From Solwaraspora sp. WMMD791 (GTDB taxonomy: Bacteria > Actinomycetota > Actinomycetes > Mycobacteriales > Micromonosporaceae), in the NCBI RefSeq assembly GCF_029581195.1, contig NZ_CP120737.1:4999001-5063000 (forward strand): DNA of 64,000 nucleotides. Direction: 5' to 3'. The position numbers and the translations under genes were made by a program. Under the pieces are notes generated by a model. The model was given only the letters and a program-made list of their open reading frames with translations. It did not search any database and was not told the DNA's origin. Shown piece after piece: positions 1 through 17,942 of this stretch; positions within the stretch are counted from its first letter, which is position 1; each line of letters opens with the position of its first letter.

Positions 1-3000
1 TCCAGGCGACCGTTCTGGTTCAGCTCCAGCAGCCGTTGCAGCCGCGTCGGATCGACGTCGCCGTACCAGTCGGAGTTGACGCTCCGTAGCAGTTGTTTCA
101 GCGCGGTCTCTCCGAGGAGGAACCGGCCGTCGTCGTGGTATGCCGCCAGCACCCGGTACGCCGCCTCCAGACGCTGCGGCGTCAGCTCGAACACCCCGTG
201 CGCGCGGGCCACCAGGTAGCCGGCGGCAAGCAGGTTGTGCCGGGCGGCCTGCTCGCCCACCTCGGCCATCGCCGGAGCGACCGTCGCGAGCCGCGCAGCC
301 AGCCCGTCCAGCGCCGTGACCAGGACCGACGGATTCTGCTCGACCGCTGCGGCACCAGCCACGTCCAGCAGCCCGGCAACCAGGTCGTGACCGGTGAAAC
401 CGAGGTCGGGCCCGCTCGTCTCCGCTGGTACGTAGCCGACCTCGTCCGTTATCGCCGTAGCGCCGAAGGCCGCCACGACGGTCCGACGCTCGACGTCGCT
501 GACCGGATGCAGCAGGTCGCCGGTGGCCTCCGGCAGTACCACGGGTCGAGGCTCCGGCCGATGCACCCGTACGAATCCCGATTCGGTCGTGGCGCCGACG
601 TGGCTGGCCAGGGCGCGGCCGATCCACGTCCCGAGCACCCATACCGGCCACGGGGTCTGCTGGGACGGCAGCCCGATCACCACTGGTGGGTCGTCGTCGC
701 GTACGGCCGGCGACTCGTCCGCCGGCCCGATCCACACCCGTTGGCCGACCGTCTGCACATGCCAACCCGGCATCAGCTGGTACCGGCCCGGGCCGATGCG
801 GTGCAGAGCGACCATTTCGAAGTCCAGTACGGACTGCTGCTGCGGTTCGGTGTGCACCGTGTAGTAGCGGGCCCCGGGGCCGAGGGAGGGACGGTGATCT
901 CGACTGCGGGCCACGAAGTGATCCGCCACCGCCCCGGTCGGCTCGACCAGGTCGACGTCGAGCGCGAGCACACTGTCGCCGCCCAACACCCGGGCGAGTT
1001 CCACCGCCCGCAGGGCGCTGACCGGCGCGGCGGTCAGCAGCTCCACCATGGTTCCCGCAGGTAGGTCGTCCCGCAGCCGGCGCAGCACGCGTTCGGCCTG
1101 GGCGGCGTCGGTGACCTGAACCAACAGCAGCATGCCCTCCCGTCGTGGCAGCCGGGACGGCGCCTGCGTCGTCGAGGACGACGGACGGAGGAAGACCCCT
1201 GCGGCCCCGGCCGGCATGTGGGGGTACCTCTCCGGGGTGCCCAGCGGGATGCTGTCGTACCCGTCGGCCGGGGGCAGTTGAGCGGCCGCCGCGCCCCAAC
1301 GGTGCACCGACCCGGCCTCCTGGATCCACAGGCCCAGGAGGAAAGCCTGGGCCTCATGCAACAGGCTCAGGTACAGGGCCCATGCCGTGTGCTCGAGTGT
1401 TCCGACCTGGCTCACCGCACGTTTCACGCGTTCCCGGAGCCGCTCTCCGGCCGCGCTGTCCGCTGCCGCCGCCGACCACCGCCGCATCTGGGCCATCAGA
1501 TCGCTTCGCTGCGCGAGAAGCTGGTAGATCGCGGCCCGGTCGGGGTGATTCAGCCCGTGCCGCGACAGCAGCTCCGCCACCTCCCGCTGCGAAGCGTCGA
1601 GCTGGCTCGCCGGCCCCTCCAGTAGCTCGCGGTGCACCTCCGGATCCTTGATCAGCCCAGCCAGCACTCCCGGGTCGCCGGTCTCGGCTACCCGCCACCG
1701 TGCCACGGTTGCTTCCTGCTTCGAGTGGAACTTCTCGTGGACCAGCACATCCCGCGAACGGTCGGCGTTCAGGTCGTACCGAAGCCGCAACTGCCAGCGC
1801 CAGCGCTCGAAGGAGGCATCGGCGTGATGCCCGGCGGGCATCTGCACCAGCCGTTCGTATCCGCGCGGCCTCGGCGTGTGCAGCAGCCAACTCATCCGGC
1901 GGTCGAGGCGCCGCCAGGCGTCCATCACGCTGCCCATTTCGTTGTCGACAAGTCGTCTGTTGTCCTGCTCCACCAACGTCGGCACCTCAGTGACGAGTGC
2001 CTCCGCCCCCAGAACACGGTTGGTGTAGGCCAGGTGGATGGCGCCGAGCGAATCGGTGGCGATCTGGTGGATGTCGCGCAGCGCCGAGTGCACCTGCGCG
2101 TCGGTGGGGTCGAGGCGCACCAGTTGGGCGTCAGGGTCGATGGTGGTGCCGCCGGCACCGGCCACCACTGTCCATCCGGCCTGTACGAGGGCCGCCACGT
2201 GGGTGTCGAGCGGCAACGGTGGTTGAGCACGCACCACCCGTACCACCCGACCCGCCGGATCCTCCTCCACACTGGCCCGGACCTGGATGGTCTGTCCGTG
2301 CACCTCCGCCTGGAAGAGATGCGAGTCGTCGATGACGATGTCGGGTTGAACGGGCGTACCCGTAGTGACGACATGCCAGACGAACTCCCGGGCCTTGTCC
2401 TGCGCCGACCGCAGCCCGGTCTGCCGCCCCAGCCTGTGCAGAGCTTGCGCGACGCGGTCGTCGCCCGCTGAGTTCCAGCCGATCCGCTTTGCCTCTTCGT
2501 AGAAATGGACGGCGTCCGGGGCAGTGAACATCCCGCTACGTGCCCGCGCGCCCGAGACCAGGCCCATCAGGGTCGGCAGCGACCCGCCCGAGCCGCCGCC
2601 TCGCAGCCTCAGCGTCGGTTCGCTACCCGAGCCCTGCTGGTTCGCCGGACCGGTCTGCGCGGTGTCCTGCGTCACCGCCGGCGTCGTGTCGTCGACCCGA
2701 TCACCATCTGGCTGGCTCGGGGCGGAGCCGTCGCCGGTCGACGGATGTGCGGGATCCGGGACGTCTGCCAGCTCGGACCCGTCGGTCGCGGCGACCACCT
2801 TGTTGGAAGCGGTGGACGGAACGGGGTGCCGGACATGACCGCCCTCCGTCGCCGGCTCCACGTCCTGTGCCGCCGCGGTGATCCCGGTCTGCCGCGCCTG
2901 CGGGAGGGCCTCCTGCTCGACCTGCATCCCGGCCGCCGGCTGCTGGCTTCCGGCGATCGCCGTGGGCTCGGGATCGGGGGCGGTACCGACCGTTTCGGGT

Positions 3001-6000
3001 ACGTCGTCCGCGACCGTTGCCGAGTGTTCCATGGCGGCGCGCGACGGCACCTCCTTGTCCCCGGCAACTGGTGCGGAGCTGGCCTGCCCGTCAGGGTTGT
3101 CGCTCGTCGGTACCAGCGACGAGTCGTGCGTTGCGGGCAAGATGCTCTGAGAGAGCGTATCCGCTGGTCCGTGTGACGCGGCTTTGGTGGCCGGTGGTGG
3201 TGGCGCGGTGTGTTCGTGGGGGTGGGCCTGCTCCGTCGCCAGATCGGCCAGCATCGTGTCGCGGTCGGCCGTCAATCCGTTGGCGAGGATCGCGGACGCG
3301 ACCGGGTCGGTGCCTTCGGCCTGCATACGCTGCGCCTTGAACTTTACCCATCGCGTGCGCAGATCGTCGGCTGGCGGGGCGGCGGCGTCGGTTGTCTTGG
3401 CGGCAGTGGTGTGGACAACCGTCGGTGGGTCAGTCACTTGTGCCGGCGGTGCCGTCACTTGTGCCGGCGGTGCTGGTGGTGGTGCGGTGGTTTGGGTGGC
3501 TGTTGGTGCGGTGGTGGTGTGTTTGTAAGGGCGGGCTTCGACGGGTACGCCCATCTGCTTGCTCAGTCTTGTGGCAACGTCGTCGAGCCAGCGTCTGACG
3601 TCGGCGGGGTCGAGTCCGGGGCGGATTTTTTCGCTCATGTAGTGGCCGGACTTGTCGTCGACGATCCATCGGCCGGTGGCCGGGTCACGGTGTAGTTCGC
3701 CGCTGATTCGTTCCTTGCCCACGTAGGCGCGGCCCTCGTTGTCGAAGCGTACGCCGATGGTCGGGTGGCCTTGCTGGTTGATGCTCTCCTTGAGCTGGTC
3801 GACGGTGAGGTCGGGGTTCTTCGTGCGCATCGCGGCGTGGAGGTCGTCGAGCTGTCTGGCGGAGACGACGGTGAGAATCTCCTCACTGCCGATCATGATG
3901 TCGTCCGACTCCGTGACGACGTAGTGCCAGTGGGCGTCTGGTCGGCCGGCGTAGATCTCCGGGGTGAAGTCGGACAGCGGCATCCAGGCCGGGTTGACGC
4001 GTATCTGCTGAGTGCGCAGCGCGTCTCCGCTGATGGTCTGCCCGTCGGCCGGACCGGGCGGATCGATTTCGAACGGCTTGACGCCCTTCGCATCGACGGC
4101 AGGACCTCTCAGCTGGTCCAAGTCGGCTACCGGCTGCTCGCTCGGCGGTGTCGACTCCGCCGGAGCAGTTTCCTGGTCGACCATCGCCTGGTAATGGTCG
4201 CTGCGCCGGTACACGTCGAACAGGGGCGCGGAGTCGCGGCCGATCGTCTGGGTGTGTTCGGGTGCGTGGATACGTATCCGGGCGTCCAACGCGGCCGCCA
4301 ACAGCCCGGCGAACGCCTCGCCGACCGGGTCCTGCCAGCGAGATTCCCAGTGTCGGACCGCCTCGGTGAGGGTGGAGAACTCGCTGGCGTCGGCCGGTCG
4401 GAGCGGGTGGAGCAGATGTGTCATTAGCTGGTCGCGCAGCGTCTCATCGGAGAGTGCTCGCAGTTCGACCGGATGGCCGCTGGCGGTGAGGTAGTCGAAC
4501 ATGGCCCGCATCGAGAGTGCCTCGTCGGCCAGGTCGCGGGGCGGTGAGCCGTCCGTGGTGGGTGTGAGGGGCACCTGACCTTCCGCGTGGGCGCGGGCCG
4601 CCGCCGGGTCCCATCCGGCGGCGACCAGGTCGGCGGTTCGCTGGTCGAGGTAGAGATCGCGCATCTGCGTGGCCGGTGGCAGGCTGGGGTCGCGCAGCCT
4701 CGTGATGCCCGCGTCCTGCAGCCGGCCCAGCAAGGTGTCGCGGTTCATCGCGTCCACCTCGGCGCGCAACTGCAGTACGCGGTTGTCCCGGTACCCCTGT
4801 AGAGCTGCCGCTGGCACGCCGTCCGGGCCCACGGTCTCCAGGTGGCGTTCGACCAGGCGCCGCAGCAGCTCCGCCGCCTGACCGAGTTGGCTGGTCGATG
4901 GCACCAACCCACCTGCGTGGGCGGCCCAGGCGGTGATCTGGGCGCGGACGGCCTCGGGACTACCGAGCCAGGCGTGTAGGGCAGGCGAGCCCAGGCCTGC
5001 GGCGGCCAGCCGAGCGCTGACCAGCTCGGGGGCACTGCCGACAGTGGAGTAGAGCTGGCAGTACCCGCCTCCTGGCGTCGGTAGCACCTGTGGCCCGCTC
5101 GTCGAGGTCCCGGTGGTGTCGGCTGGGAGTTGGTGTGTGGTGGTGTCGGTCGGGGTGCGGCGGCTGCTGTCGGTCTGGATGTGCTTGGCGAGTGCGGCCG
5201 CGTCGGTGTCCGGGGTGCCCTTGGGGACCCCGACGTACCGGTGCCGGAAGTCGTCGAGCAGTTCGTGATGCCGTTGCAGCAGATCCCACCAGGCATTTCC
5301 GGCCCGATCCCAGTCCTGGTGCAGCTCGGCCAACTTGGCCTCGGCGGCGACGCGTGCGGCGCTGCCTTCCTGGGCCATGTACGCGTCGTAGCGGGCCTGG
5401 TCGAGATTGTCTGCCGCCGCGACGAAGCTCTCCGCCGCCTTGGCCAGCTTCGCCTCATGATCGACGATCTCGTCGAAGGCGGCGACCCGGCCGGGCGAGT
5501 CCTTGGCCAGGGCTGTGCTGTCCTTCGGGATGTGCAGCGCCGTCCGGGCGTCATGCAGGCCCATCCGCAACGATACGTTCACCAACTCGCCCGGCAGGCT
5601 GGCGCTCGTCACCGTCCTGGCTGGCAGCAGCGAGTACGACAGCGAGACGGTGACCTCGACCCGGCTGAGGTAGTCGACGGCGGCCGAGCGGCTTTCCGGC
5701 TTGACGTTGCCCAGGTCGCTCGTGGCGGTGCCGCCGCTCTCGGCGGCGGCCTGGGTGTCACCGGCGGCGACGCCGGGCCCGCCGGCCTCCAACGCCTGGT
5801 ACGGGTCGTCGGCGAAGCCGCGCCCGATCAGGGGGATGCGGGGAATCCGCAGGCTCTGGGTGATGACGCTGGTGCCGGTGCTGTAGCCACCGCTCTGTTG
5901 CGGCGCGTGTTCGCGGTAGACGCCGGAGCTGACGCCGCCGAGCGAGGCGCTCTCGGGCAGCAGCCTGATGTTGATCGTCGCCTTCTGTCCGAAGATCTGG

Positions 6001-9000
6001 GCGCTGACCGCCGGTGGCAGGTCGAACCCCGCTTCGGTCAGCAGCTTCGGCAGGCCGGGAAGCAGGATTTCCGGGGTGAGGCTCTGGTGGATCTGATGCG
6101 TGCCGGCGTACCCCGTTGTCTTGAGCCGTTTGGCGGCGTCGCCCAGCAGGTTCGCGACGAGTTGTTGCACCTGGGCGACCGGGTTGAGGTCCTCGGCGCT
6201 GAATCGCGGCGGCAGCGGCATTCCGTTGAGAGTCCGCCAGCCGGGTGCCAACTTCTCCGGCACGACGATCTGGTAGGGCACGGCCGTGACCGCCGGCATG
6301 GACCGTGGCGGCCGAAGGTCGTCGGCCCACCGGTCCTGGACCACCTTGTCGTGGACGACCAGCAGGTCGCCGTCGACGCGCTTGCCCTTGTCGAAGATGG
6401 CCAGGGTGTATTTGACGCGGGTCTCCAGCTTGGCCTTGACCCCACGACCGGAGCTGAGGTTCGTGTCGATCGTGGTCAATCCGTCGCTCTGTGCGTTCAG
6501 TACCTGGGACACTTGCCCGACGGTGTCTCCCATGCCGACCGCGAGGTTCTCGCCCTGGTGGTTGGAGACCCCGGTGCCGGCGACGCCGATGGTGGAGGTG
6601 CTGCCATGCATTCGCTGGGTGGTGACACCCTGTTCGCTGGTGTGGGTGGTTTTGATGTCCAGGTCGTCGTGGTCGGCGACGAAGCCCAGGACCTTCGGTT
6701 CGCCGACGGGCTCGGCGATCAGCCGCACGTCCCGGGAGTGCTGTGTCATCCGGCCTGGCTTCGTGTGCAGCACCGACACCCCGCCGTCGACCATGGCGGA
6801 CCAGTGCTGCGCCTGCCCCTCGGGTGTGAGGAGGTAGAGCAGGCGACGGCGGTTCAGCATCGGATCGTCGAGCCCCGGGCCGGAGAGCGAGTCGGAGACC
6901 TTGCCGATCGACCGGTTGGTGATCCGGCCCTGCACCATGTCGAGCAGGCTCTTGACCATGCCCTTGTCAGGGCCGAGCTTGGCCGCCTCGGACCGGAGCG
7001 CGGTGGTCATCGACTCGGTCAGGGTCGGGGTGTCGTCGAAGGTGTAGAGACCCAGGCCGAGGCTGCGTCCGGGCGGTAGGGTCAGCGCCGGAGGCATCGT
7101 CGGCAGCCACGGTTGGCTGATCATGCCGGGGTCCCCGGCCAGCTTCGGCAGCAGGCCGAGCTTCACCATGGTGGCGGCGGACAGCCGCAGGAAGATCGCA
7201 TTGGTGATGGTGCCGTGCCGGGCCACCGACTTGTGATGATGCAGCCATTCGCCGCTGCGCAACGACTGTGGGATGACGGCGTACCGGTCCGGATCGTTGG
7301 TGATCTCTACCGCCGCGGATACCCGCATGTCGAAAGCGACCAGGAACGACCGCTGTTTCCCCTTGCGGTTGTTGGCGTTGCGTTCGATCGCGCCACTGAC
7401 ACTCTTGGTGTCGCGCCTGGAACCGGCGTAGAGCACCTTCTCGTACGTGGCCGGGAACACCGCGCCGCCACCGTGGGTGGTGCCGGTGCTGGTGCCGACG
7501 CGGCGGACGTTCGCCGAGAAGTTGGCGCGCAACGCGAGCTGTTTCTCGATGGTCCGGGCGGCGCTGATCTCGACCGATCCGACCGAGGCGGATTCGTTGG
7601 TGATGTTGGCGTACGCCGGCAGTATGGTCGGATTGGTCAACGCGACCGCGATGGCCAGGTCGGTGGCCGCGCCGTCCTCGGCGGAGGTGATCTTGTCCAC
7701 GTGCCAGACGCCGCCGAGCATCAGACCGAGGCCGTGGATCTGCCGCGACTCGCCGAGCCGGTCGATCATGCTGGCCCAGACCGGCATCCCCTCGGCCAAC
7801 CCGTCGGTGCCGCGCAGACCGCCCAGCTTGGTACGCGACACCGTGTCGGTGTAGTGCTGGGCAGCGTAGAGCGCATCCCTGGCCAGCGCGGTGATCAGGG
7901 CGCTACCCGGGAAGTCCTCCACCGACAACCAGCGGTCGACTGCCGACTTCGGTCCCGCGTCGACCCAGTCGCGCAACCCGTTCAACTCGAGCTGGGTCCG
8001 CCGGTCGACCGCCAGCGGATCGGGCCGTGGCGTCAACGTGGCGGGCAGACTGATCGGCTGCGCGAGCACCGAGGCGTTGTCGAACTGCACGGTGACCGGA
8101 CGGGTCTCGACCAGTCGGAATCGGGTGAACTTCTTTCCGCCGACCAGGGCGGCCGGCTCGTGGGTCGGGTTCACCACCCTGGTCGAGTCGGTGGCCGGCC
8201 GAGGCAGCCGCTGGCGCATCACCCGTCCGAACTTGACGCGGGACTTCGGGTCCGGGCCGAGGTGCTTCGTGTACGCGTACACCTGCACCGTGATCTGCAG
8301 GTCGTTGCCGAATGCCTGGGAGTCCGGAGTGCCACCGTTGAGTCGGCTCTCCTGACCGCCGAGCTGCGCGCTGCTCTGCCGATCGAATCGGCCACGCAGT
8401 TCCACCGCGCCCCCGGGTACGAACGCGCCGGCGGTGTTGCCGGTGAGCCGGAAGACGCCACCGCCCTCGAACGCTACGGCACCTCGCCACTGGCTGCCGG
8501 CGCTGATCTTCTCCTGGAAGGCGTCGGTGTGGGTGGTCCGTACGGCGTCGCCCTTGCTGATGCCAAGGTGCTGGAAGGCCTTGGTGTAGCTGGCGGTCAC
8601 GTGCACGACGACGTGCCGGGTGCCGAACTTCTTGGTGCGACTGAGCTCGGCGATCAGACCGGTCTTGAGCAGATTGCCCTTGCCCTGACGCAGCCCGGCC
8701 ATGGACAGCACCCGGTCCAACGCGTCCTGGTTGGCCTGCCGTTCGACCGCCGCGCGGCTGGTGGCCATTCGTTTGACCTTGCCGGACTTGCCGAACTCGG
8801 GCAGGAAGCCGCCCTCGATGCGTCGGATCAGCCCGGCCACATCCAGATAGAGCTGTTGGAACCCGCTGAGTCCGTACAGCACGGACCGCCCACCGCCGCT
8901 GAGTGCGTACGGCGGCACGTACCACTGCGTCGGGGACGGGATCAGCACGCTGCTGTCATTGAGTAGCTGGGCGACCCGGACCGCCGGTAGGTGGCCGAGC

Positions 9001-12000
9001 ACCACCAGATCCACGGTGATCGGCGCGACCGTGCCCTCGCCGAACACCCGGCTGCCCGGCACCTCGCGTAGCCCGGCGTCAACGGTGACCCGGAAGTGCG
9101 CCTCCACCAGGACGTTGGCGATGTCCTTGAACTCGGTGCCGGTCCGGGACGTGCCGCCCTGGCTGACCGAGGCGGTCATCGAGCGCAGGAAGCCCCCGAA
9201 GAGCCGGGCCTGCACGTATCCGGGGCCGAACGCCCAGCGGGCGGGGACCAGGGACAGACCCATGCCGACCCGGCTGGAGTGGGCCAGCTTCGTCGCCTCA
9301 CTCTGCCCCGGCTGCCAACGGAAGGAGGTCTTGGCGACGTCGGCCAGGATGGACAGCTTCGGCATGCTCGCCGTGAGTTCCAGTGACAGCGCGTGCGCGC
9401 CGTGGGCGCTGGTGATCGTCGGTGGGTGGACCACGGTGTCCAGGGCCGGCATGAGATTGCCGACCATGGCGGACTCCTTGAACAGGCCACGGGCCTGCCC
9501 TGCCCCCAGCGTGCCCGGTCCGACGGCCTTGGTGGGCTGAAGCAGGACGAGTACGTCCTCGATCACGTCGTTCCAGGTCCCCGTCGGGTCGGTGCCCTCG
9601 GCCAGACCGACGCCAGCGCGCAGGATCCGTATCGGCGTGAAGTTCTCGACCAGCATCGACGTGTGTCTGCTCGGGTCGATGGTGAGCCAGTCGGGGTCAC
9701 GGGGCGTGGCCTTGGCGATGTCGTCGACGCTACGGAACGTCACGTCGGCCCGGACCGGCTCGCCGACGTGCCGCTCGGCGGCCTTCGGACCGGTCAGCGG
9801 CCTGGCCGGGTCTGTCACGACGACTTCGAAGCCGACCGGCGCGGCCACCAGGTGAGAGCCTGACCCACTGCGGACGTTGTGCGAGTCGGTCAGCTTGACG
9901 CCGTCCTCGAACGACTCCAGCGGCCGGGAGAGGGCGACTTCGATGGAGCCACCGGCACCGTAACCGACCCGTTGCGGGAACATCGTACCGGCGCCGAGGG
10001 ACCCGGAGCCGCCGCTGGTGGACGCATGCTTGGTCCCACCGGACTGGTCACTGCGGGTGTCGAACTTCGCCTTGTCCTCGGACTGGTCGATGACCTTGGC
10101 CTCGGCCGGCGACCAGGTCGGCGTGACGGTGACCCGGTGCCAACCGAGCAGCCCGTCACGGACGTCGAAGCTCCGGCCACCGGTGGTGAAGAACGACTTT
10201 CCGTCGTCGCGGAGCGCCTGGCCGATCTCGTCGGTCTGCACGGAGAGCTTGGACAGCCCCGGCACCAGCGGCAGTTTCCCGGCCACCCGGGTGCGTACCG
10301 CGTCGGCGACACTCTGGTCGAGGCCACGGATCAGGCCGTCAAGGTCGTCGATGGTGTCAGGCGTGTACAGCAGGTCGGGCCGGGTCTTGTAGAGGCCGGG
10401 CAGTGGGCTGTCGATCGTCGTCACCGGCTCCAGGACCGTCAGCTGGATGTCCTCACCCGGCGCGGTCACGGTGATCCTGGGCGTGGTGCTGCTCTTGACG
10501 ACGGCGGCCAGCGGCGCCGGTGCGGTGCCTGACGTGGTGGACGCCGTCGTGGCCGGGGCATGCACCGTGGCTTCTTCGGCACCGACCTTGGGCGGGATGT
10601 CCACACCGGAGGCCCAGAATTCCTCGGCGATGTTGCCTGTGACGGTGTCCGGCACCGGACGCGGGGCGGTGGAGCCCGAGAAGTACGGTGCCAGCACGTC
10701 GGCGATCTGGCCGAGGGCCCGAGGGGTCAGCACGAACTCGTCGGCGTCGTGCGGGTGGCTGCCCATCAGGTCGCCGTGCTCCGGCTGGTGGGTGTCGTGC
10801 AGCAACGCGTTCGGCGGCGCAGTGCTGTCTTTCACGCCGAGCTGGTGCACGATCTCGTGGGCGTACTTGGCGGGCGACGCGCCGGCCGCCCAGGTCTGCT
10901 GGGACATCTGCGTGCCGGCCGGGACGACCGTGATGGTGCCGCGTGCCTTGGCCGGGTCGTCGACGAAGTCCACTGTCACCCGGATCGGGACGTCCCACCC
11001 GGACAGTCGGTGTTCGGCAGAGTTGACGTACCGCTGCAGCCCTTCGACGGTGCGGGTCTTCACCTCGGCGATCTCCTGCGCCGTGACGCCGGGCGCGGCG
11101 TCGAGGCGCAGCTTGAACGCGAAGTGCATGTCCTGGTCGGTGACGGTGAGCCGATAGCCGACGCCGACCCGCTCGCCGCTGGCCGGGGGCCGGGTCACCT
11201 TCGGCGGCTGGCCGGGGGTGGTCGGCTCGAAGCGGAAAGCGTCCTTGAACGGTGTCCACCGCTCGGCGTCCACCTCGATCACCCGGGCCGGGCCGGCGGG
11301 TCGGCCGTCGCCGAGCAGATCGCGTGGCGGCATCGCGAGCTTGTCGGCCGGCTTGGCGGAGACATCGTCGGCGACGCGGCCCGGTTCCGGTAGTTCGAGG
11401 ACCTCGTCGCCAGCCGTCGGCGTCGGCCGCGCCGGTGCGTCCGGCGTCGGCCGCGCCGGCGTCGCCGTCAGGTTTCCCGCCGGGGTGTCCGCCGGCTTGG
11501 TGACTCCCGGCTTGGTGACCTCCGGCTTGGTGACCGCCGGGGTTTCCGCCGGCTTCGTCCCCGGCGGCACGTCCGCTGCCGAGGTGCCGGGGCTGGTCGT
11601 CGGCAGGTCGCGGGGCGGGCTCGGCAACTCATCGAGCCGGTGGCCGATCGTCGGGTCGGCAGGCCGGGGCCTGGGCGTCGGTAGCTCGTCTGCGGCCCGG
11701 CCGGACGCCGCAGTGGCGTCCGCCCCGCGTAGCTGGGCCAGCCGGTCGCCGAGGGTGGTGTAGCGGGCCGCGGTGTCGTTCCGCAGGCCCTGGGACAGCC
11801 CGCCGAGGGCCTCGTCCAAACGGGAGTCGAGCGGGCGGAGGTGGTCCGGGGAAGTGAGCGCGGCGTTGATCTGGGCGGTGGTGTCCAGCCGGTGCTCGTC
11901 GAGCCGGGCGGCGTAGCGGGAGAGCACATGGTCGATGCCGGCGTGATCGTCGCCAGCCCGGACGAGCGCGTCCTGCCAGGTCCGGTACTCGTCGGCGGAG

Positions 12001-15000
12001 AGCGGGCCGGTGCCGTCGCGCAGCTCCGCGAGTCGGGCCTCGCGCTCCAGCGCCGTGATGCGTGTTTCGTACCGGGCCAGCACGGCCGCGTCGGCGGCCT
12101 CGTCACCGGCCCGGGCGAACTCGGCATTCCATTCGGCCCGCTCGGCCGGTGGCATGCCGAGTGTTTCTTCCCGGTAGGCGCGCAGGTCGGCGAGCCGATC
12201 GGTCAGGTCGTCGAGGGCGCCGGGCGGCGTCGTCGGTACGTCGGGCAGGTCCTCGAGCCTGACCGGTGGGGTGTCCGGGTCGGTTCCGCGTAGCGCGTCC
12301 AGCCGGTGGCGCAGTTCCAGGCCGGCGAGGTCCAGGTCCGGCGTACCACTGTCCCCGCGCAACGCGTCCAGGCGCTTCTGCAGGTCGTCGATGCCGCCGG
12401 GCGGCAACGTCGGTGGCTCCGGAAGCTGGGGGAGCGGTACGTCGGGGCCGTCGGTGCCGCGCAGGTTGGCGAAGCGCAGCTCCAGCTCCAGGTCGGCGAG
12501 CCCCGGGTCGGGGGTGTGATCGCCACGCAGCGCGTCGAGGCGGGCCTGCAACTCGTCGAGGTCGCCCGTCGACCCGGCCCCGTCGGGGGAGCGGCCCGGG
12601 GCGGCATCGGGTACGACCTGGTCGTGCAGCTTCTGTTCGGCCAGTTTGCCGGCGAGGCTGTTCTCGTAGGCGTCGAGCAGCCGGTGCAGTTCGTCGGTGC
12701 GCCCAGCGGCGGTCGCCCGCTCGATGTCGATGGCGTGCTGCAACCAGGTCGACTTGTCCATGCCCAGCTGCGCTGCGCGGTGGTGCCCGGCGTCGACATG
12801 TGCCCGGTAGGAGTCGAGCCGCTGGAACAGGGCCTGCCGGTCGATCCGGTCGTGCAGGGTGTTGAGTCCTCGGGCCGCGTCACCGTGCCGGCCCTGCTCG
12901 ATCGCGGTACGGACCTCGGTGCTCAGCACCCTCAGCTCCTGATCGGGCAGGTCGACACTCCGCGCGTCGGAGACGAGTTCGGTCAACCGCTGGCTGAGCG
13001 CGGCCGGGTCGGGAGTGGCCGCCGGATCGGTGCGCGGCACGGCCGGCAGGTCCAGGAGATCGTCGCCGGCACCCGTACCGTTCGCCCCGTCAGCTCGGCC
13101 CGGCGTAGCGATCTGGTCGGGGGTCTGCGGTCGGCCCAGAGTGTCGACCTGCGGCGTGGACGCAGCCCCGGCGTCGTCGAGTCGCGTCGGACCGACGCCG
13201 GTGGGAGTCTCCTCGGCGCGGGCGGCGACCAACTGCGCTTCCAGGTCGGCGAGGCGTTCGACGGCGGTGGCGCGGGCGGTGGCCTCCGCCGGGGAGATGG
13301 TCGGGACGTCCGGGAACATCGCCGGATCGACCGGGCGGGTTTCGGCTGCCCCACCCGGACGGAGCTGGTTGAGGCGGTGTTCGAGCTCCAACTGGCGGGC
13401 CGCCGGGGACGGCAGATCGGTGCCGCGCAGCGCGGCCAGCCGGCTCTCCAATTCTGCCGTGCTGGTGCCGGGCTGGTGGGTGGGGACCGCAGGCAGGTCA
13501 GCGAGGTCGGCCGGCGTCGTCGGGCGTAGTTGCGCGAACCGGTGCTCGAGTTCCAGCGCGGCCAGGTCGGTACGGGGGGCGTCGGGGCCGCGTAGGTTGT
13601 CCAGCCGGTCCTGCAGCGCCTGCACCGATTCGTCCACCGTCGTGGCTGGTCTGGCCGCCGCGAGGTCGGGTGCAGTGGTCGGGTTGGCCGCCGCGAGGTC
13701 TGGCGCGACCGTACCGGTCGGATAGGCCGGTGGGGGATCGACGGTACGGGAGACCTCGCGGGCTTCGATCTTCACTCCGTCGGCGGTCCTGCGGACCAGC
13801 GCCTCGGCGACCCGGACGTCCCTTTCGGCGCGGGCCACGGCCAACGCGTCCCCGGAGACGTTGGCCAGCGCGTGCTGTGCCTGTTTGAGCTGCTCCACCG
13901 CGTGCAGGTGAGTGAGCTGCTGCGGCGACGGGCCGCCGGCCTGATCCAGGCGGGGCGGTGCGGGCACCGAGAGGTCACGGCCGAGGCTGGTAGGCGCGGC
14001 GACCGTCGGCGGATCCATCCGGTGCAGAGCGGTGAGCGCCGCCGTACCAGGCTCATCGAGCAGGTTCAACGCCTGGTGGACGGTGGTCGCGTCAGCGGCC
14101 TTGCCGAGCTGCACGGGGTTGGGCGCGAGGGCGTCGACCCGGGTGGTGCCCGTCGGGGCCGCCGACGAGATCGAACCCGTCGGGGTGGGGGTGAACGTGG
14201 AGGTGGGCGTGAACGTGGAGGTGGGCGTGGGCGAGGCAGGGCTGACGTCACCGAACGCCTTTTCCGGCGCGCCGAGGTTGAACGCCACCCCGGTCTCCGA
14301 GACCCGGATCGCGCTGACCTCGCCCATGTGCAGGTTGCGCAGCTCGGCGCGACCGAAATCCGCCAGCCCGTCGACGCCGCCGACAGCCCGGTTGAGCGTG
14401 GTGCTGAGGTTGCCGATCTGCATGTTCGGCAGGGTCACCGCGCCCGGCGTGGCCACCGTGGGCATGGTGACCTGATTCATCCCCGCGACCGTGCCGACTG
14501 TCGGTACTTCGAGTCTGGAGATGTGGCCCAGGTCGAGCGCGTGCGCGGCACCGGGCAGATTGGTCGCGGGGATCGGGGTGACCGTACCGGCCGTCCCCGG
14601 CACGGGCACGGACACGTCCAGGTTCTGCACGCCGCGTAGCCCCGCGAGGTCATGCAGGCCGAGCGCGCCACGTGCCGCGGACAGGTCGAGACTGCGGGCC
14701 GAGAAGCTGAGCTGCTGCGTCGACGGAGCGCCGATCATCGGCTTCTCGATGAGGTCGGGAAGGTGCAGCCCGCTCGGACTGAAGTTGATCCCACCGGCGG
14801 GTGGCGGCGCTCCGCCGGGCTTGACGACGTGCACCGTGGTGAGGCCGTTGGCGAGCCGGACGCCACCGCCGAGCGCCGCGAGTCCGTCGAACCGGGTCAG
14901 TCCGAGCCCGCGACCCAGCACTCCGAGCTTGAACGCCCCGGACACTCCGACGGCGCGGATCTCATGACCAGCCAGGGGCAGGAAGATCCGTAGCCATTGC

Positions 15001-16127
15001 CAGCCGCCGAACTCCCGCGCCATCAGGTTGCCGAACCTGACGGCGTTGACGGCGATGAACCGGCCCGCGTCGGCTGTCACACCGGCGAGCTTGACCAGAC
15101 CCTGCTGTCCGATGTTGCCCATTCTGACGACCGTCGCCGGGACGGTGACCAGGGTGAACTTCTCCAGGGTCACGAATCCCCGGGCGGCCAGTCCGTCCAT
15201 CGGGCCGACGATCCGGGGGATCATCAGCGCGCCGACCTTCACCGAGTTGGCCAGGGTGACCCCGATGTCGCCGATTCCGCGCATGGCCACGCTGAGGCTC
15301 AGCGTCGACACCGTACGCCAGAAGTCGTTGATGCCGGTGCGCGCCAGAGTGAAGCTGTTCCGGCTGAACTGGGTGATGTTGCGCCACGCGGTGGTGGCCA
15401 GTTTGGTGAGGTCGCCGAGGGCGATCAGCGGTCGGGTACTGGGACCGAGTAGTCCGAGCAGCCCGAGCGCCAGACCCAGCGCGTTCGTCTTGCCCATCGC
15501 GAAGTCCAGGGTCGCCTTCACCGCCAGGGCGGCGTTCATCGCGAAGGCGATCAGGCCGAGCGGGCCACCGACGAAGACGGCGACCACGGTGACGATGAGG
15601 GTCAGCCAAGTGAAGATCTCCCAGAACACCTCGCAGGCCGACTTGGGAGTCACAGGCGACTTGATGTGACTTGTGGCGTCGAGAAGGGACTGCCGGGCCG
15701 TCCCCGCCGCAGTTCTCACGTCGGCCGCGGCGTTCTCCGCGTCCGCCTTGAGCGCGTTGATGCGTTCCTCGTCGTCGCCGGCCCCGGCCGCATCGCGCAG
15801 TGCCTGGTCCGCCTTGGACTGCGCCTCGCGCAGCGCCTCGGCGTACGTGCGGATGGCCGGCCCGGCGGCGGAGAAGGCCGTGCGTACCCCGGCGATGAAC
15901 CCGCTCATCTCCTTGCTGATCTGTTCGCGCAGCCAGTCTGCGGTCTTGCCGACGAACGCCCCGTCGCCGCTCTGTCGCAGCACCGCGGCGAGCCCGTCGT
16001 CGGCGGTCTTGGCGTGGTCGGCCATGACGTCCATGTAGCTGGCGACGCGCAGCAGCACGTCCGGATCGCCAGGTGTGGGGTCACCCGACAGTGTGAGCGG
16101 TGACCAGTCACCAGGCCGTACCCCCAC
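1..16127 (-). CDS. Giant T7SS-type secreted protein (partial, C-terminus beyond window)
   Basis: One frame stays open from a GTG at 16127 to the left edge (about 5375 residues, no stop seen). The start is chosen because GGGAGGG lies just upstream and the first residues (MGVRPGDWSPLTLSGDPTPG) resemble the N-terminal module of predicted T7SS-secreted proteins (recalled similarity). In order: a helical N-terminal module; a hydrophobic membrane stretch at about residues 163-225; proline/threonine-rich linkers; eight or so repeats of the type LxxRLxxLRGxD between about 850 and 1310; a HEIVHQLGVKD site at 1757-1767; long beta-rich regions; an OTU-like region with Cys3690 and His3978; an LRLRGG motif at 4506-4511; and further alpha/beta sequence. 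It is divergent from the T7SS substrate genes and close to EccC, so export by that ATPase is inferred. It resembles polymorphic-toxin or giant multidomain effectors. The terminal effector domain, if any, is not visible. Confidence 0.85.
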   Translation of the reverse strand, partial: MGVRPGDWSPLTLSGDPTPGDPDVLLRVASYMDVMADHAKTADDGLAAVLRQSGDGAFVGKTADWLREQISKEMSGFIAGVRTAFSAAGPAIRTYAEALREAQSKADQALRDAAGAGDDEERINALKADAENAAADVRTAAGTARQSLLDATSHIKSPVTPKSACEVFWEIFTWLTLIVTVVAVFVGGPLGLIAFAMNAALAVKATLDFAMGKTNALGLALGLLGLLGPSTRPLIALGDLTKLATTAWRNITQFSRNSFTLARTGINDFWRTVSTLSLSVAMRGIGDIGVTLANSVKVGALMIPRIVGPMDGLAARGFVTLEKFTLVTVPATVVRMGNIGQQGLVKLAGVTADAGRFIAVNAVRFGNLMAREFGGWQWLRIFLPLAGHEIRAVGVSGAFKLGVLGRGLGLTRFDGLAALGGGVRLANGLTTVHVVKPGGAPPPAGGINFSPSGLHLPDLIEKPMIGAPSTQQLSFSARSLDLSAARGALGLHDLAGLRGVQNLDVSVPVPGTAGTVTPIPATNLPGAAHALDLGHISRLEVPTVGTVAGMNQVTMPTVATPGAVTLPNMQIGNLSTTLNRAVGGVDGLADFGRAELRNLHMGEVSAIRVSETGVAFNLGAPEKAFGDVSPASPTPTSTFTPTSTFTPTPTGSISSAAPTGTTRVDALAPNPVQLGKAADATTVHQALNLLDEPGTAALTALHRMDPPTVAAPTSLGRDLSVPAPPRLDQAGGPSPQQLTHLHAVEQLKQAQHALANVSGDALAVARAERDVRVAEALVRRTADGVKIEAREVSRTVDPPPAYPTGTVAPDLAAANPTTAPDLAAARPATTVDESVQALQDRLDNLRGPDAPRTDLAALELEHRFAQLRPTTPADLADLPAVPTHQPGTSTAELESRLAALRGTDLPSPAARQLELEHRLNQLRPGGAAETRPVDPAMFPDVPTISPAEATARATAVERLADLEAQLVAARAEETPTGVGPTRLDDAGAASTPQVDTLGRPQTPDQIATPGRADGANGTGAGDDLLDLPAVPRTDPAATPDPAALSQRLTELVSDARSVDLPDQELRVLSTEVRTAIEQGRHGDAARGLNTLHDRIDRQALFQRLDSYRAHVDAGHHRAAQLGMDKSTWLQHAIDIERATAAGRTDELHRLLDAYENSLAGKLAEQKLHDQVVPDAAPGRSPDGAGSTGDLDELQARLDALRGDHTPDPGLADLELELRFANLRGTDGPDVPLPQLPEPPTLPPGGIDDLQKRLDALRGDSGTPDLDLAGLELRHRLDALRGTDPDTPPVRLEDLPDVPTTPPGALDDLTDRLADLRAYREETLGMPPAERAEWNAEFARAGDEAADAAVLARYETRITALEREARLAELRDGTGPLSADEYRTWQDALVRAGDDHAGIDHVLSRYAARLDEHRLDTTAQINAALTSPDHLRPLDSRLDEALGGLSQGLRNDTAARYTTLGDRLAQLRGADATAASGRAADELPTPRPRPADPTIGHRLDELPSPPRDLPTTSPGTSAADVPPGTKPAETPAVTKPEVTKPGVTKPADTPAGNLTATPARPTPDAPARPTPTAGDEVLELPEPGRVADDVSAKPADKLAMPPRDLLGDGRPAGPARVIEVDAERWTPFKDAFRFEPTTPGQPPKVTRPPASGERVGVGYRLTVTDQDMHFAFKLRLDAAPGVTAQEIAEVKTRTVEGLQRYVNSAEHRLSGWDVPIRVTVDFVDDPAKARGTITVVPAGTQMSQQTWAAGASPAKYAHEIVHQLGVKDSTAPPNALLHDTHQPEHGDLMGSHPHDADEFVLTPRALGQIADVLAPYFSGSTAPRPVPDTVTGNIAEEFWASGVDIPPKVGAEEATVHAPATTASTTSGTAPAPLAAVVKSSTTPRITVTAPGEDIQLTVLEPVTTIDSPLPGLYKTRPDLLYTPDTIDDLDGLIRGLDQSVADAVRTRVAGKLPLVPGLSKLSVQTDEIGQALRDDGKSFFTTGGRSFDVRDGLLGWHRVTVTPTWSPAEAKVIDQSEDKAKFDTRSDQSGGTKHASTSGGSGSLGAGTMFPQRVGYGAGGSIEVALSRPLESFEDGVKLTDSHNVRSGSGSHLVAAPVGFEVVVTDPARPLTGPKAAERHVGEPVRADVTFRSVDDIAKATPRDPDWLTIDPSRHTSMLVENFTPIRILRAGVGLAEGTDPTGTWNDVIEDVLVLLQPTKAVGPGTLGAGQARGLFKESAMVGNLMPALDTVVHPPTITSAHGAHALSLELTASMPKLSILADVAKTSFRWQPGQSEATKLAHSSRVGMGLSLVPARWAFGPGYVQARLFGGFLRSMTASVSQGGTSRTGTEFKDIANVLVEAHFRVTVDAGLREVPGSRVFGEGTVAPITVDLVVLGHLPAVRVAQLLNDSSVLIPSPTQWYVPPYALSGGGRSVLYGLSGFQQLYLDVAGLIRRIEGGFLPEFGKSGKVKRMATSRAAVERQANQDALDRVLSMAGLRQGKGNLLKTGLIAELSRTKKFGTRHVVVHVTASYTKAFQHLGISKGDAVRTTHTDAFQEKISAGSQWRGAVAFEGGGVFRLTGNTAGAFVPGGAVELRGRFDRQSSAQLGGQESRLNGGTPDSQAFGNDLQITVQVYAYTKHLGPDPKSRVKFGRVMRQRLPRPATDSTRVVNPTHEPAALVGGKKFTRFRLVETRPVTVQFDNASVLAQPISLPATLTPRPDPLAVDRRTQLELNGLRDWVDAGPKSAVDRWLSVEDFPGSALITALARDALYAAQHYTDTVSRTKLGGLRGTDGLAEGMPVWASMIDRLGESRQIHGLGLMLGGVWHVDKITSAEDGAATDLAIAVALTNPTILPAYANITNESASVGSVEISAARTIEKQLALRANFSANVRRVGTSTGTTHGGGAVFPATYEKVLYAGSRRDTKSVSGAIERNANNRKGKQRSFLVAFDMRVSAAVEITNDPDRYAVIPQSLRSGEWLHHHKSVARHGTITNAIFLRLSAATMVKLGLLPKLAGDPGMISQPWLPTMPPALTLPPGRSLGLGLYTFDDTPTLTESMTTALRSEAAKLGPDKGMVKSLLDMVQGRITNRSIGKVSDSLSGPGLDDPMLNRRRLLYLLTPEGQAQHWSAMVDGGVSVLHTKPGRMTQHSRDVRLIAEPVGEPKVLGFVADHDDLDIKTTHTSEQGVTTQRMHGSTSTIGVAGTGVSNHQGENLAVGMGDTVGQVSQVLNAQSDGLTTIDTNLSSGRGVKAKLETRVKYTLAIFDKGKRVDGDLLVVHDKVVQDRWADDLRPPRSMPAVTAVPYQIVVPEKLAPGWRTLNGMPLPPRFSAEDLNPVAQVQQLVANLLGDAAKRLKTTGYAGTHQIHQSLTPEILLPGLPKLLTEAGFDLPPAVSAQIFGQKATINIRLLPESASLGGVSSGVYREHAPQQSGGYSTGTSVITQSLRIPRIPLIGRGFADDPYQALEAGGPGVAAGDTQAAAESGGTATSDLGNVKPESRSAAVDYLSRVEVTVSLSYSLLPARTVTSASLPGELVNVSLRMGLHDARTALHIPKDSTALAKDSPGRVAAFDEIVDHEAKLAKAAESFVAAADNLDQARYDAYMAQEGSAARVAAEAKLAELHQDWDRAGNAWWDLLQRHHELLDDFRHRYVGVPKGTPDTDAAALAKHIQTDSSRRTPTDTTTHQLPADTTGTSTSGPQVLPTPGGGYCQLYSTVGSAPELVSARLAAAGLGSPALHAWLGSPEAVRAQITAWAAHAGGLVPSTSQLGQAAELLRRLVERHLETVGPDGVPAAALQGYRDNRVLQLRAEVDAMNRDTLLGRLQDAGITRLRDPSLPPATQMRDLYLDQRTADLVAAGWDPAAARAHAEGQVPLTPTTDGSPPRDLADEALSMRAMFDYLTASGHPVELRALSDETLRDQLMTHLLHPLRPADASEFSTLTEAVRHWESRWQDPVGEAFAGLLAAALDARIRIHAPEHTQTIGRDSAPLFDVYRRSDHYQAMVDQETAPAESTPPSEQPVADLDQLRGPAVDAKGVKPFEIDPPGPADGQTISGDALRTQQIRVNPAWMPLSDFTPEIYAGRPDAHWHYVVTESDDIMIGSEEILTVVSARQLDDLHAAMRTKNPDLTVDQLKESINQQGHPTIGVRFDNEGRAYVGKERISGELHRDPATGRWIVDDKSGHYMSEKIRPGLDPADVRRWLDDVATRLSKQMGVPVEARPYKHTTTAPTATQTTAPPPAPPAQVTAPPAQVTDPPTVVHTTAAKTTDAAAPPADDLRTRWVKFKAQRMQAEGTDPVASAILANGLTADRDTMLADLATEQAHPHEHTAPPPPATKAASHGPADTLSQSILPATHDSSLVPTSDNPDGQASSAPVAGDKEVPSRAAMEHSATVADDVPETVGTAPDPEPTAIAGSQQPAAGMQVEQEALPQARQTGITAAAQDVEPATEGGHVRHPVPSTASNKVVAATDGSELADVPDPAHPSTGDGSAPSQPDGDRVDDTTPAVTQDTAQTGPANQQGSGSEPTLRLRGGGSGGSLPTLMGLVSGARARSGMFTAPDAVHFYEEAKRIGWNSAGDDRVAQALHRLGRQTGLRSAQDKAREFVWHVVTTGTPVQPDIVIDDSHLFQAEVHGQTIQVRASVEEDPAGRVVRVVRAQPPLPLDTHVAALVQAGWTVVAGAGGTTIDPDAQLVRLDPTDAQVHSALRDIHQIATDSLGAIHLAYTNRVLGAEALVTEVPTLVEQDNRRLVDNEMGSVMDAWRRLDRRMSWLLHTPRPRGYERLVQMPAGHHADASFERWRWQLRLRYDLNADRSRDVLVHEKFHSKQEATVARWRVAETGDPGVLAGLIKDPEVHRELLEGPASQLDASQREVAELLSRHGLNHPDRAAIYQLLAQRSDLMAQMRRWSAAAADSAAGERLRERVKRAVSQVGTLEHTAWALYLSLLHEAQAFLLGLWIQEAGSVHRWGAAAAQLPPADGYDSIPLGTPERYPHMPAGAAGVFLRPSSSTTQAPSRLPRREGMLLLVQVTDAAQAERVLRRLRDDLPAGTMVELLTAAPVSALRAVELARVLGGDSVLALDVDLVEPTGAVADHFVARSRDHRPSLGPGARYYTVHTEPQQQSVLDFEMVALHRIGPGRYQLMPGWHVQTVGQRVWIGPADESPAVRDDDPPVVIGLPSQQTPWPVWVLGTWIGRALASHVGATTESGFVRVHRPEPRPVVLPEATGDLLHPVSDVERRTVVAAFGATAITDEVGYVPAETSGPDLGFTGHDLVAGLLDVAGAAAVEQNPSVLVTALDGLAARLATVAPAMAEVGEQAARHNLLAAGYLVARAHGVFELTPQRLEAAYRVLAAYHDDGRFLLGETALKQLLRSVNSDWYGDVDPTRLQRLLELNQNGRL
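2595..2612 (-). other. LRLRGG ubiquitin-tail-like motif in the giant protein
   Basis: Codons 4506-4511 read L-R-L-R-G-G, followed by G-S-G-G. This is identical to the last six residues of eukaryotic ubiquitin, the sequence recognised by deubiquitinases including OTU enzymes. It sits in a low-complexity linker about 530 residues after the OTU-like His. The match is exact, but six residues of low complexity can arise by chance; a processing-site role is inference. Confidence 0.5.
4180..5075 (-). other. OTU-like cysteine peptidase region inside the giant protein
   Basis: Residues of about 3685-3983 begin with GGGYCQLYSTV (Cys3690), continue through helical sequence and end with ALDARIRIHAPEH, a short acidic stretch, and DVYRRSDHYQAM (His3978). 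The order Cys-helix bundle-beta strand-HY is the layout of OTU-family cysteine peptidases, where the Cys is the nucleophile and the His near the end completes the dyad. The canonical GDGDC entry is degenerate here (GGGYC), so this is a tentative family call based on layout. Confidence 0.45.
10827..10859 (-). other. Metzincin-like zinc site inside the giant protein
   Basis: Codons 1757-1767 encode HEIVHQLGVKD, matching HExxHxxGxxD. In snapalysin-type and related metzincin metallopeptidases this supplies two zinc-binding His, the catalytic Glu, a Gly turn and a third zinc ligand (Asp). A methionine in HGDLMG about 20 residues later could be the Met-turn. Sequence before it looks like a small mixed alpha/beta fold. 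The motif is seen directly. The protease activity and its target (self-processing or an external substrate) are inference. Confidence 0.6.
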
Positions 16128-16270
16128 CGGACCCTCCCGCTGCCCCGGACGCCGTCGTCCTGTTCGACGTGGCGCACCCGCGTGGAGGTTCACGGTGAAC
16201 CGCTGGCGGCCCTGGCCGCGTCGAACCACACAGACGGCGTACGCCGACGAGCCGGAGGAAGGGGCGCAGG
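16128..16270. promoter_or_regulatory. Divergent intergenic region of the T7SS locus
   Basis: These 143 bases separate the giant minus-strand gene from the plus-strand substrate genes, so promoters for both should lie here. GGGAGGG precedes the GTG at 16127 on the minus strand and GGAGGAAGG (about 16254-16262) precedes the GTG at 16271. I could not identify convincing -35/-10 elements. Confidence 0.5.
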
Positions 16271-17284
16271 GTGGCTGACCTGGTGCTCGACTACGCGCTG
16301 CTACACAGCCTCGCGGGCAGCCTGCGTGAGTTGAAAAGCAAGATCCAGTTCGACGTGGAGACCGGCTCCCGCCGGGCAGTGGTCACCTCCGACGGGACCG
16401 TCGTCGACTCCAGCCAGGTCGGCAATTCGACCCTGTACGGGACGCTGAGCGCCTTCTTCTCCGCCTGCCATACCCCGTTCAAGGACTCGATGGAGCTGCT
16501 CGACGAGCTGGCGAACACCTTCGACAGCATCGCCAAGGCCTACTTCGATCTGGACGCGGACGTCGCCGGCAAGGTGAACCTGGACCGGCTGCGGTCCAGC
16601 GTCAGCGGCTGGCAGGCCGACACCGCCGCGTACGAGCGCTACCTCGACCTGAAGGACCGGGAGATCACCTTCCAGTACTACGACAAGGACGGGAACCTGG
16701 TCGACGGTTCAGTGCCGGTGTGGAGTGGCGATCCGGTGCCCGAGCCGGGGGATGCGCCCACCTCCATCGACGGCACCTCGCCGGTGGGCAGCAACAACAC
16801 CACGGCGGTCCTGGACGACGACGGCAACGTCATCTCCGAGACGACCACGGTCACCTCCGGCGACGGACTGACCTACACCGAGACGACCCAGTTCACCTAC
16901 CGCGACACCGACGGCGACGGGGAGATCGACGTCGTCGACTACACCTCCACCATCACCCACTCCGACGGCATGGAGGAGAAGATCGAGAAAAGGACCAACG
17001 ACGACGGCTCGTTCGTGGTGACCTCCACCACCAGCGAGGGCACCACCACCAGCACGGTCACCCCAAAGGCCGACGGCGGATCGCACCAGGTGACCGTCGA
17101 CCATGAAGGGGAGACCACCACGACCGACATCGTGGTGACCGGACCGGACACCGGCACCAAGACGGTCGTGGATTCGGACGGCACCAAGACGTACACCGGC
17201 AATCCGAAGACCGGGGAATGGACGCTCGTCTCCGAGGAGCCAGCCGAGGACGACTACATCCCCTACACCACTGTCACCATCTGA
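16271..17284 (+). CDS. WXG100-like T7SS substrate with beta-repeat C-terminus
   Basis: 337 residues starting at GTG with GGAGGAAGG upstream. Residues 1-135 are helical, with the T7SS export-type signal YxxxD at Y91-D95 (YFDLD) and a conserved-looking Trp at 114. Residues of about 165-330 are rich in Thr, Asp and Gly, with short beta-type repeats (for example VLDDDGNVISETTTVTSGDG) and DTDGDGEID, which resembles a calcium-binding loop of dockerin or thrombospondin type. There is no classical signal peptide. It is first in an apparent plus-strand operon with the two small WXG100-like genes, so it probably leaves the cell through the linked EccC system. Its function outside is unknown. Confidence 0.75.
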   Translation: MADLVLDYALLHSLAGSLRELKSKIQFDVETGSRRAVVTSDGTVVDSSQVGNSTLYGTLSAFFSACHTPFKDSMELLDELANTFDSIAKAYFDLDADVAGKVNLDRLRSSVSGWQADTAAYERYLDLKDREITFQYYDKDGNLVDGSVPVWSGDPVPEPGDAPTSIDGTSPVGSNNTTAVLDDDGNVISETTTVTSGDGLTYTETTQFTYRDTDGDGEIDVVDYTSTITHSDGMEEKIEKRTNDDGSFVVTSTTSEGTTTSTVTPKADGGSHQVTVDHEGETTTTDIVVTGPDTGTKTVVDSDGTKTYTGNPKTGEWTLVSEEPAEDDYIPYTTVTI

Positions 17285-17308: not shown

Positions 17309-17614
17309 ATGCCGAACATCACCGTCGACTTCAGCAAGGTGCAGGCGGTCAACGACCAGCTCAACTCCGCCGTGACGCAGACCGTACCGCGCCTGGAGAA
17401 TCTGCTCGCCGCGGTGTCCCAGCTGCTCACCAGCGACGGTGGCCTGTGGTTGCAGAAGTCGAGTCCCACCCTCAGCGGGCAGTACCAGACCTTCAACACC
17501 GAGCTGACCGCGGCGATCGAGAGCATCCGGTCCTTCGCCCAGCAGTTCCACAACATCACCGTTCAGCTGAGCACGATGGACGAACAGATCGCCACCTCCA
17601 GCAGCGCCAGCTGA
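17309..17614 (+). CDS. WXG100/ESX-like small protein 1
   Basis: 101 residues, almost wholly helical, with the helix-turn-helix break at GGLWLQ (Trp at about residue 49) where WXG100 proteins carry W-x-G; here the motif is W-L-Q. Size and layout match EsxA/EsxB-type secreted partners. GGAG lies 11 bases before the ATG. It follows the 337-residue substrate gene by 24 bases and precedes a paralogue by 22, so the three are probably co-transcribed. It likely dimerises with its neighbour and is exported by the EccC encoded opposite (inference from family). Confidence 0.8.
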   Translation: MPNITVDFSKVQAVNDQLNSAVTQTVPRLENLLAAVSQLLTSDGGLWLQKSSPTLSGQYQTFNTELTAAIESIRSFAQQFHNITVQLSTMDEQIATSSSAS

Positions 17615-17636: not shown

Positions 17637-17942
17637 ATGGCAGAAGTAAACGTCGACTACGCCCTGGTCAACACCGTCGCCGGGCGGCTGACCACCGAGG
17701 GCGCGGAGATCGCCAGCGTACTGACAAACCTGCAGACCAGCGTCAGTGAGCTGCTGACCAGCCAGGGCGGCCTCTGGCTACAGCAGTCCAGCCCGGTGAT
17801 GAGCACGCAGTACACCGAGTTCACCAATTCGTTGACCAAGGCCGTCAGCAACCTGGAGACCTTCGCGTCGAGCTTCTCGATGATCGCGAAGAACCTGAGC
17901 GACATGGATCAGACACTGTCCCAGCCGCCACCCGCGAGCTGA
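17637..17942 (+). CDS. WXG100/ESX-like small protein 2
   Basis: 101 residues, paralogous to the preceding gene: both share LLTS-GGLWLQ-SSP in the middle and end in a short Ser/Pro tail. The turn motif is W-L-Q rather than W-x-G. GGAGG is placed 7 bases before the ATG. As the second member of an ESX-like pair it may form the heterodimer recognised by the EccC C-terminal ATPase domains. The gene ends just before a strong hairpin shared with the convergent eccC gene. Confidence 0.8.
   Translation: MAEVNVDYALVNTVAGRLTTEGAEIASVLTNLQTSVSELLTSQGGLWLQQSSPVMSTQYTEFTNSLTKAVSNLETFASSFSMIAKNLSDMDQTLSQPPPAS

Follow-up and report, generated by a model that had tools for sequence, protein, structure and literature searches.

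A giant protein with several peptidase-like sites and its conserved EccC-containing gene cassette in Solwaraspora sp. WMMD791

Introduction

The LXG polymorphic toxins of the Firmicutes type VII secretion system (T7SSb) carry a T7SS-linked N-terminus, have small helical partners and bear variable cargo. In this study, we analysed a stretch of 64,000 nucleotides of Solwaraspora sp. WMMD791 (the window; G000:C1:4999001-5063000 in our genome set, where G000 is a genome of 6.93 Mb in one contig) that holds a giant gene next to genes for an EccC-type ATPase and WXG100-like proteins. The general kind of protein is already in print: Zhang et al. (2012, PMC3482391) described gigantic proteins of actinobacteria that contain several peptidase domains, among them OTU, and also placed OTU domains in T7SS (WXG) toxins, with OTU proposed as a processing peptidase or as a toxin. 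This description corrects an earlier note on the same DNA, which had called proteins of this size and domain set rarely characterised.

The giant of the window resembles those toxins in its size, in having several peptidase-like domains with OTU among them, and in its T7SS link. Compared by description with the proteins of PMC3482391, it differs in an OTU-like branch without a Pfam match, a B module of ~1,770 amino acids (aa), a dedicated conserved cassette that includes a sigma factor and a beta-helix/AAA+ protein, and cargo exchange that affects both the interior and the tip. Literature searches covering titles and the starts of abstracts returned no description of the cassette, of its promoter-like pair or of interior swapping, and nothing for the phrase "lonely Cys domain".

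With LXG toxins the giant shares the linked N-terminus, the small partners and the variable cargo. It is about ten times larger and differs further in its several peptidase-like sites and the lack of an adjacent immunity gene; a Pfam scan of the giant gave no LXG match. On balance, we lean towards reading the locus as a dedicated type VII-like cassette that would export an interchangeable giant effector bearing several peptidase sites.

Conservation of the cassette

According to tblastn, the order tm424, EccC, wxgB, wxgA, p337, giant, sigma factor and beta-helix/AAA+ protein is kept in nine genomes (G000, G034, G060, G020, G010, G114, G079, G590 and G581), with wxgB, wxgA and p337 divergent from the giant and the sigma gene convergent with it. 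A search of genome contigs confirmed one locus, in Actinoplanes utahensis. Matches to p337 were found in 12 of 354 genomes of the family: the nine cassette genomes (67-100% identity; interrupted by stop codons in G060 and G114) and three remote loci in G006, G044 and G062 (31-32%). The remote loci combine EccC (51-52%), a WXG100-like gene, sigma factor and beta-helix/AAA+ genes in a somewhat different arrangement, with no tblastn match to tm424. The more distant giants in G036 and G679 likewise have EccC-like and AAA+ neighbours (28-30% and about 34-55%).

The EccC protein matched FtsK_SpoIIIE (PF01580, E = 2.8e-55) in three stretches, giving the tandem ATPase expected of a type VII (ESX) locus. 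Small genes divergent from the giant are present as the earlier note had claimed; their WXG100 assignment is softer, as wxgB scored 25.8 bits on PF06013 against a cut-off of 27.3 and wxgA had no match to this family, yet is 41% identical to wxgB. The sigma protein matched Sigma70_r2 (1e-16) and Sigma70_r4_2 (3.7e-11), and the AAA+ protein matched Beta_helix (1.6e-51), AAA and AAA_lid_6, the last presumably as in EccA. These components, namely EccC, a WXG100-like pair and an AAA+ protein with AAA_lid_6, resemble those of mycobacterial-type ESX systems; the fusion of the AAA+ protein to a beta-helix and the linked sigma factor set the cassette apart.

The EccD expected within an ESX locus is missing from the cassette. 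The Solwaraspora genome has six EccD matches, four of them above cut-off, the nearest ~142 kb from the window. No EccD was found near the cassette in the seven of nine cassette genomes searched, where the closest match, that of G114, lies ~26 kb away from the cassette region. No match to EccB, EccE, mycosin or other ESX core models was found among eight neighbour proteins compared with Pfam, and no genome search was made for them. The earlier description of a "lone EccC" fits the missing EccD but is misleading, since this ATPase belongs to a cassette conserved in nine genomes; that kept gene order makes the link between giant and EccC stronger than had been stated.

Integrity of the giant gene

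The minus-strand frame is open from window position 16229 to past base 3 (5,409 codons within the window, end open). Leftward extension into the same genome, which the earlier note had advised, located the stop 466 bp outside the window, giving 5,564 codons counted from GTG16229, and completed the C-terminal domain. GTG16127 is favoured as the start because GGGAGGG lies a few bases 5' of it and because the open frame of G034 begins just 10 codons ahead of the equivalent residue. The claim of a single uninterrupted frame of at least 5375 codons was borne out. The gene is unbroken in five orthologues (G034, G060, G020, G010 and G114; 5,222-5,680 aa), and the G079 frame is likewise intact.

The ratio of nonsynonymous to synonymous substitution rates (dN/dS) between G000 and G034 or G060 was well under 1, at 0.11-0.42, in all regions of the giant except the low-complexity linker (0.79 and 0.31, respectively). 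In 200 mononucleotide shuffles of positions 1-16229, which did not preserve dinucleotides, the longest open frame had a mean length of 370 codons and a maximum of 566. Counted from GTG16127, the giant contains just two cysteines, which fall at the membrane segment and within the OTU-like site; both were found again in all five orthologues.

Promoter-like elements

Between p337 and the giant, TGAACC-N17-CGTC(G/A) occurs in both directions in all nine cassettes, and the spacer sequences of the Actinoplanes pair are unlike those of the other cassettes. The form TGAACC-N16-18-CGTCGAA was found four times in the Solwaraspora genome and not in the control, with N17 only in the giant/p337 pair. A looser form (N15-18 and CGTCG) gave 92 genome matches versus 6 in the control; therefore, only the full form of the element is specific. 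We take the element to resemble extracytoplasmic function (ECF) promoters, and this likeness together with the linkage suggests that the cassette sigma factor may recognise the predicted promoter pair.

Peptidase-like sites and other domains of the giant

The N-terminal region of the giant matched T7SS_signal (PF21725) below cut-off (E = 3.7e-4, 20.9 bits versus 27) and is the region retained at every one of the 12 p337-bearing loci, even the three remote ones. The proposed T7SS-substrate-like start has some support despite the score below cut-off, and the proposed membrane segment was confirmed by hydropathy (Table 1). Beyond the sub-threshold T7SS_signal, the Pfam scan of the giant returned nothing credible, and the NCBIfam scan gave no match.

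Both peptidase-like sites named earlier were confirmed, each with an HExxH motif. The M domain carries HEIVHQLGVKD and LMGS, which we take to be a metzincin-like motif class; it had no PDB sequence match at E up to 1. In the C-terminal domain, a conserved Glu, part of an E-x-Q-A motif, lies 128 residues past the first His of HEKFH. The HExxH and Glu columns are invariant in 8/8 C-terminal sequences, including two that belong to giants whose N-termini differ, and the arrangement is presumably gluzincin-like by motif; against solved structures the domain gave three matches (E 0.049-0.45), none a peptidase.

The OTU-like cysteine site is an additional candidate peptidase site that the earlier note had overlooked. 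Its Cys is invariant in 24/24 aligned members and its His is kept in at least 90%. Among 28 OTU-like segments, Cys was present in 26 (one row stops before the site, and the giant frame of G629 has Asp at this position) and His in 26, the other two rows ending before it. The site shares with OTU deubiquitinases a G-x-x-C-type motif and a closing (D/N)-H-(Y/F/W) motif, and a low-confidence predicted structure places the Cys near a helix start and the His in the final strand pair, as in those enzymes. In contrast to them, no substrate is assigned and none of the 24 members matched the OTU Pfam models at E up to 1. A PDB profile search with the domain gave EschOTU as the best of five matches, three of the others resembling viral OTU domains; a previous OTU profile had given three PDB matches (E 0.47-0.75), two of them unrelated. 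Among the VIA-align matches listed, 26 of 43 look like OTU-type proteases. Genomes G661 and G644 each have five OTU-like matches located apart from one another, within frames 2,017 to 4,989 codons long, which suggests expanded sets of putative giants within one genome.

LRLRGGG is the C-terminal motif of ubiquitin, and a copy sits between the OTU-like and C-terminal domains. Cutting at this motif by the OTU-like domain was considered and is not supported as a general mechanism, the motif being poorly conserved: LRLRGGG is found in G000 and G034 only, LTLRGGG in G060 and G114, and neither in G020 or G010. A loose pattern was present in 7/29 giant frames, namely these four genomes and, as strings elsewhere, G629, G609 and G325. 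LRLRGG occurred twice versus 0.1 in shuffles, both copies coming from close relatives, while L-x-LRGG (4 versus 1.35) and LRGG (18 versus 13.3) were nearer to the shuffled counts. The corresponding DNA pattern, which omits AGR codons and misses the copy in the window, gave 10 genome and 9 control matches.

Outside the six orthologues, the B module was found in G652, G703 and G590 and twice in G581. Construction from internal repeats was rejected, as none were detected and the best hhalign probability for a window pair was 3.8%. A short segment ahead of the C-terminus, DDLRxRWVxFxAQR...LTADxxTMLADLA, is present in G000, G034, G060, G020, G010, G114 and G079; the pattern was not found in G590, G581, G652, G703, G604 or G663. 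The linker ahead of the OTU-like domain of G114 is expanded to a long TTTPPPKPA-type repeat, absent from the other five orthologues.

Table 1. Features of the giant gene and its cassette (window positions; aa, residues of the giant)
Feature	Position	Strand	Basis or detail
Giant gene	1..16127, stop beyond window at L003:16535 (G000:C1:4998535)	-	start GTG16127, 5,530 aa
T7SS_signal-like N-terminal region, aa 27-135	15723..16049	-	PF21725
Hydrophobic membrane segment, aa 164-203	15519..15638	-	hydropathy; sole segment above threshold used
Proline/alanine-rich region, aa 470-1570	11418..14720	-	by eye from sequence
M domain, aa 1600-1850, metzincin-like by motif	10578..11330	-	HEIVHQLGVKD at 10859 (HExxH 10845-10859), DLMGS later
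B module, aa 1880-3650, no fold assigned	5178..10490	-	local hidden Markov model (HMM) search
OTU-like cysteine peptidase domain (candidate), aa 3675-3985	4173..5105	-	Cys 5058-5060, His 4194-4196
P domain, aa 4030-4205, after OTU-like domain	3513..4040	-	local HMM search
LRLRGGG in linker	2592..2612	-	not conserved generally
C-terminal domain, aa 4510-5530	1..2600, continues out of window	-	HEKFH 1725-1739; conserved Glu in LHEAQAFL 1338-1361
TGAACC-N17-CGTCGAA, promoter-like, upstream of giant	16163..16192	-	pattern search
TGAACC-N17-CGTCGAA, promoter-like, facing p337 and WXG100-like genes	16196..16225	+	pattern search
p337, cassette protein	16271..17284	+	no Pfam match
wxgA, WXG100-like by similarity to wxgB	17309..17614	+	sequence comparison
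wxgB, WXG100-like	17637..17942	+	PF06013 E = 1.3e-5, below cut-off
EccC/FtsK-type ATPase, 1,508 aa	18034..22560	-	PF01580
tm424, membrane protein (hydrophobic N-terminus by eye)	22560..23834	-	no Pfam match

Exchange of cargo among giants

Sequence comparison indicates that the cargo of the giant is interchanged among relatives while the cassette stays. The G079 giant keeps aa 1-1877 (82%) and 4397-5514 (71%) and has a different interior of 2,405 aa, in which one Cys/His pair looks OTU-like by eye (GDHNLCLLDSL ... HQHFVPL). Residues 444-2247 of this interior match a 14,824-aa frame of G629 at 45%, and an 11,802-aa frame of G609 matches residues 683-2247 at 47% and 444-845 at 41%. Both are single open frames, 14,824 and 11,802 codons long, in genomes of the same family.

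A conserved front joined to a variable C-terminus, as in polymorphic toxins, was seen in G010 and in the remote cassettes. The C-terminus of G010 is 32% identical to that of G000, while its B module is 77-92% identical per window. In the three remote cassettes, the giant matches to aa 408, 425 and 599 only (32-35% identity), and their cargo beyond the N-terminus gave no tblastn match to the giant. Conversely, G652 and G703 have N-termini without a match to the N-terminal model and a C-terminal domain 31% identical to that of G000. The G590 giant terminates soon after the OTU-like domain, and in G581 the M, B and OTU-like series is present twice.

The distance from the giant stop to the convergent sigma gene is 14 to ~113 bp in eight of nine cassettes (tblastn ends supplied the estimates for G010, G079 and G581), and the genes overlap in G590. 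The downstream immunity gene typical of a polymorphic toxin system thus has no space in any of the nine cassettes; the search did not extend to unlinked immunity genes. The products of wxgA, wxgB and p337 are 80-95% identical in G010 despite its divergent C-terminus, which is not how matched immunity genes would behave.

Neighbouring genes

An IS21-like istB/istA pair, recognised by eye, occupies window positions 24196-26219, directly upstream of tm424 at the cassette edge. Farther along, positions 29232-29759 encode a protein that looks SmpB-like by eye.

Discussion

In the reading that we lean to, the ECF-type sigma factor of the cassette probably activates both divergent promoters, so that the giant would be co-produced with p337 and the two WXG100-like proteins. 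The N-terminus of the giant, with its signal-like region and membrane segment, would dock to the cassette EccC, which would export the protein or insert it into the cell envelope; an EccA-like accessory role is possible for the beta-helix/AAA+ protein. The remainder would be swappable cargo in which candidate peptidase sites of up to three kinds occur, namely a metzincin-like site, an OTU-like cysteine site and the HExxH...E site of the C-terminal domain. Of these, the metzincin-like and OTU-like units may either cleave the giant, releasing parts of it, or act on a target. Because no immunity gene lies beside the giant, a target not shared by the producer (such as eukaryotic predators or competitors) appears likelier than sister bacteria. 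The open frame, selection on it, the kept gene order, the promoter-like pair, the conserved residues of catalytic type and the module exchange are observed, whereas export, control by the sigma factor, peptidase activity, processing and target are inferred. Weighing against this scheme, the two promoter-like elements together form an inverted repeat, which makes an operator of another regulator possible.

The earlier note had suggested a contact-dependent toxin or giant cell-surface effector. An effector would fit the peptidase-like sites and the cargo exchange; the contact-dependent interbacterial sense is weakened, because no gene fits downstream and the small genes of G010 are conserved while the C-terminus diverges. 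The same observations bear on an interbacterial polymorphic toxin whose C-terminal metallopeptidase-like domain enters competitors, with protection by an unlinked gene or by activation only in the target. The divergent C-terminus behind the conserved front of G010, of a type shared with G652 and G703, the T7SS link and the OTU domains of actinobacterial T7SS toxins described in PMC3482391 all speak for such a toxin. However, the lack of space before the convergent sigma gene and the behaviour of wxgA, wxgB and p337 in G010 leave it unlikely in our view. A stronger form of the export reading holds that a dedicated EccC cassette with its own sigma factor is a distinct kind of secretion that exports a single immunity-free multi-protease giant against eukaryotes, and that giants ranging in length from 5,000 to 15,000 aa trade entire interior modules of at least ~1,800 aa, each an OTU-type or related peptidase joined to a large body of beta-rich look by eye; we offer it tentatively, as a possibility that is rather doubtful.

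The giant might instead stay anchored in the envelope for the producer's own use, as a surface proteolytic or adhesive machine in development or nutrition rather than a toxin. The single strong membrane segment that follows the signal-like region, the long Pro/Ala-rich stretch, the large conserved B module and the absence of an adjoining immunity gene would suit this role. So would the genus members G105 and G093, which have neither p337 nor an OTU-like match, so that the system is dispensable. However, the swapped interior, the divergent C-terminus and the different cargo of remote cassettes look like effector diversification, and we consider an own-use role quite improbable. A decaying or unexpressed gene, its frame open merely through high G+C content, is scarcely credible: antisense frames of 649 and 617 codons do overlap the giant, but dN/dS stays below 0.43 outside the linker, the frame is intact in G000, the five orthologues and G079, and no shuffle approached its length.

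Giant actinobacterial proteins are hard to study, as they offer no clue to their exit route or role. For this one, the link to a specific conserved cassette of export type, the paired promoter-like elements and three candidate active sites open to testing allow separate experiments on export, processing and target. If the export reading is true, T7SS-type ATPases can serve a dedicated substrate of more than 5,000 residues, and giants would evolve through the swapping of whole interior modules.
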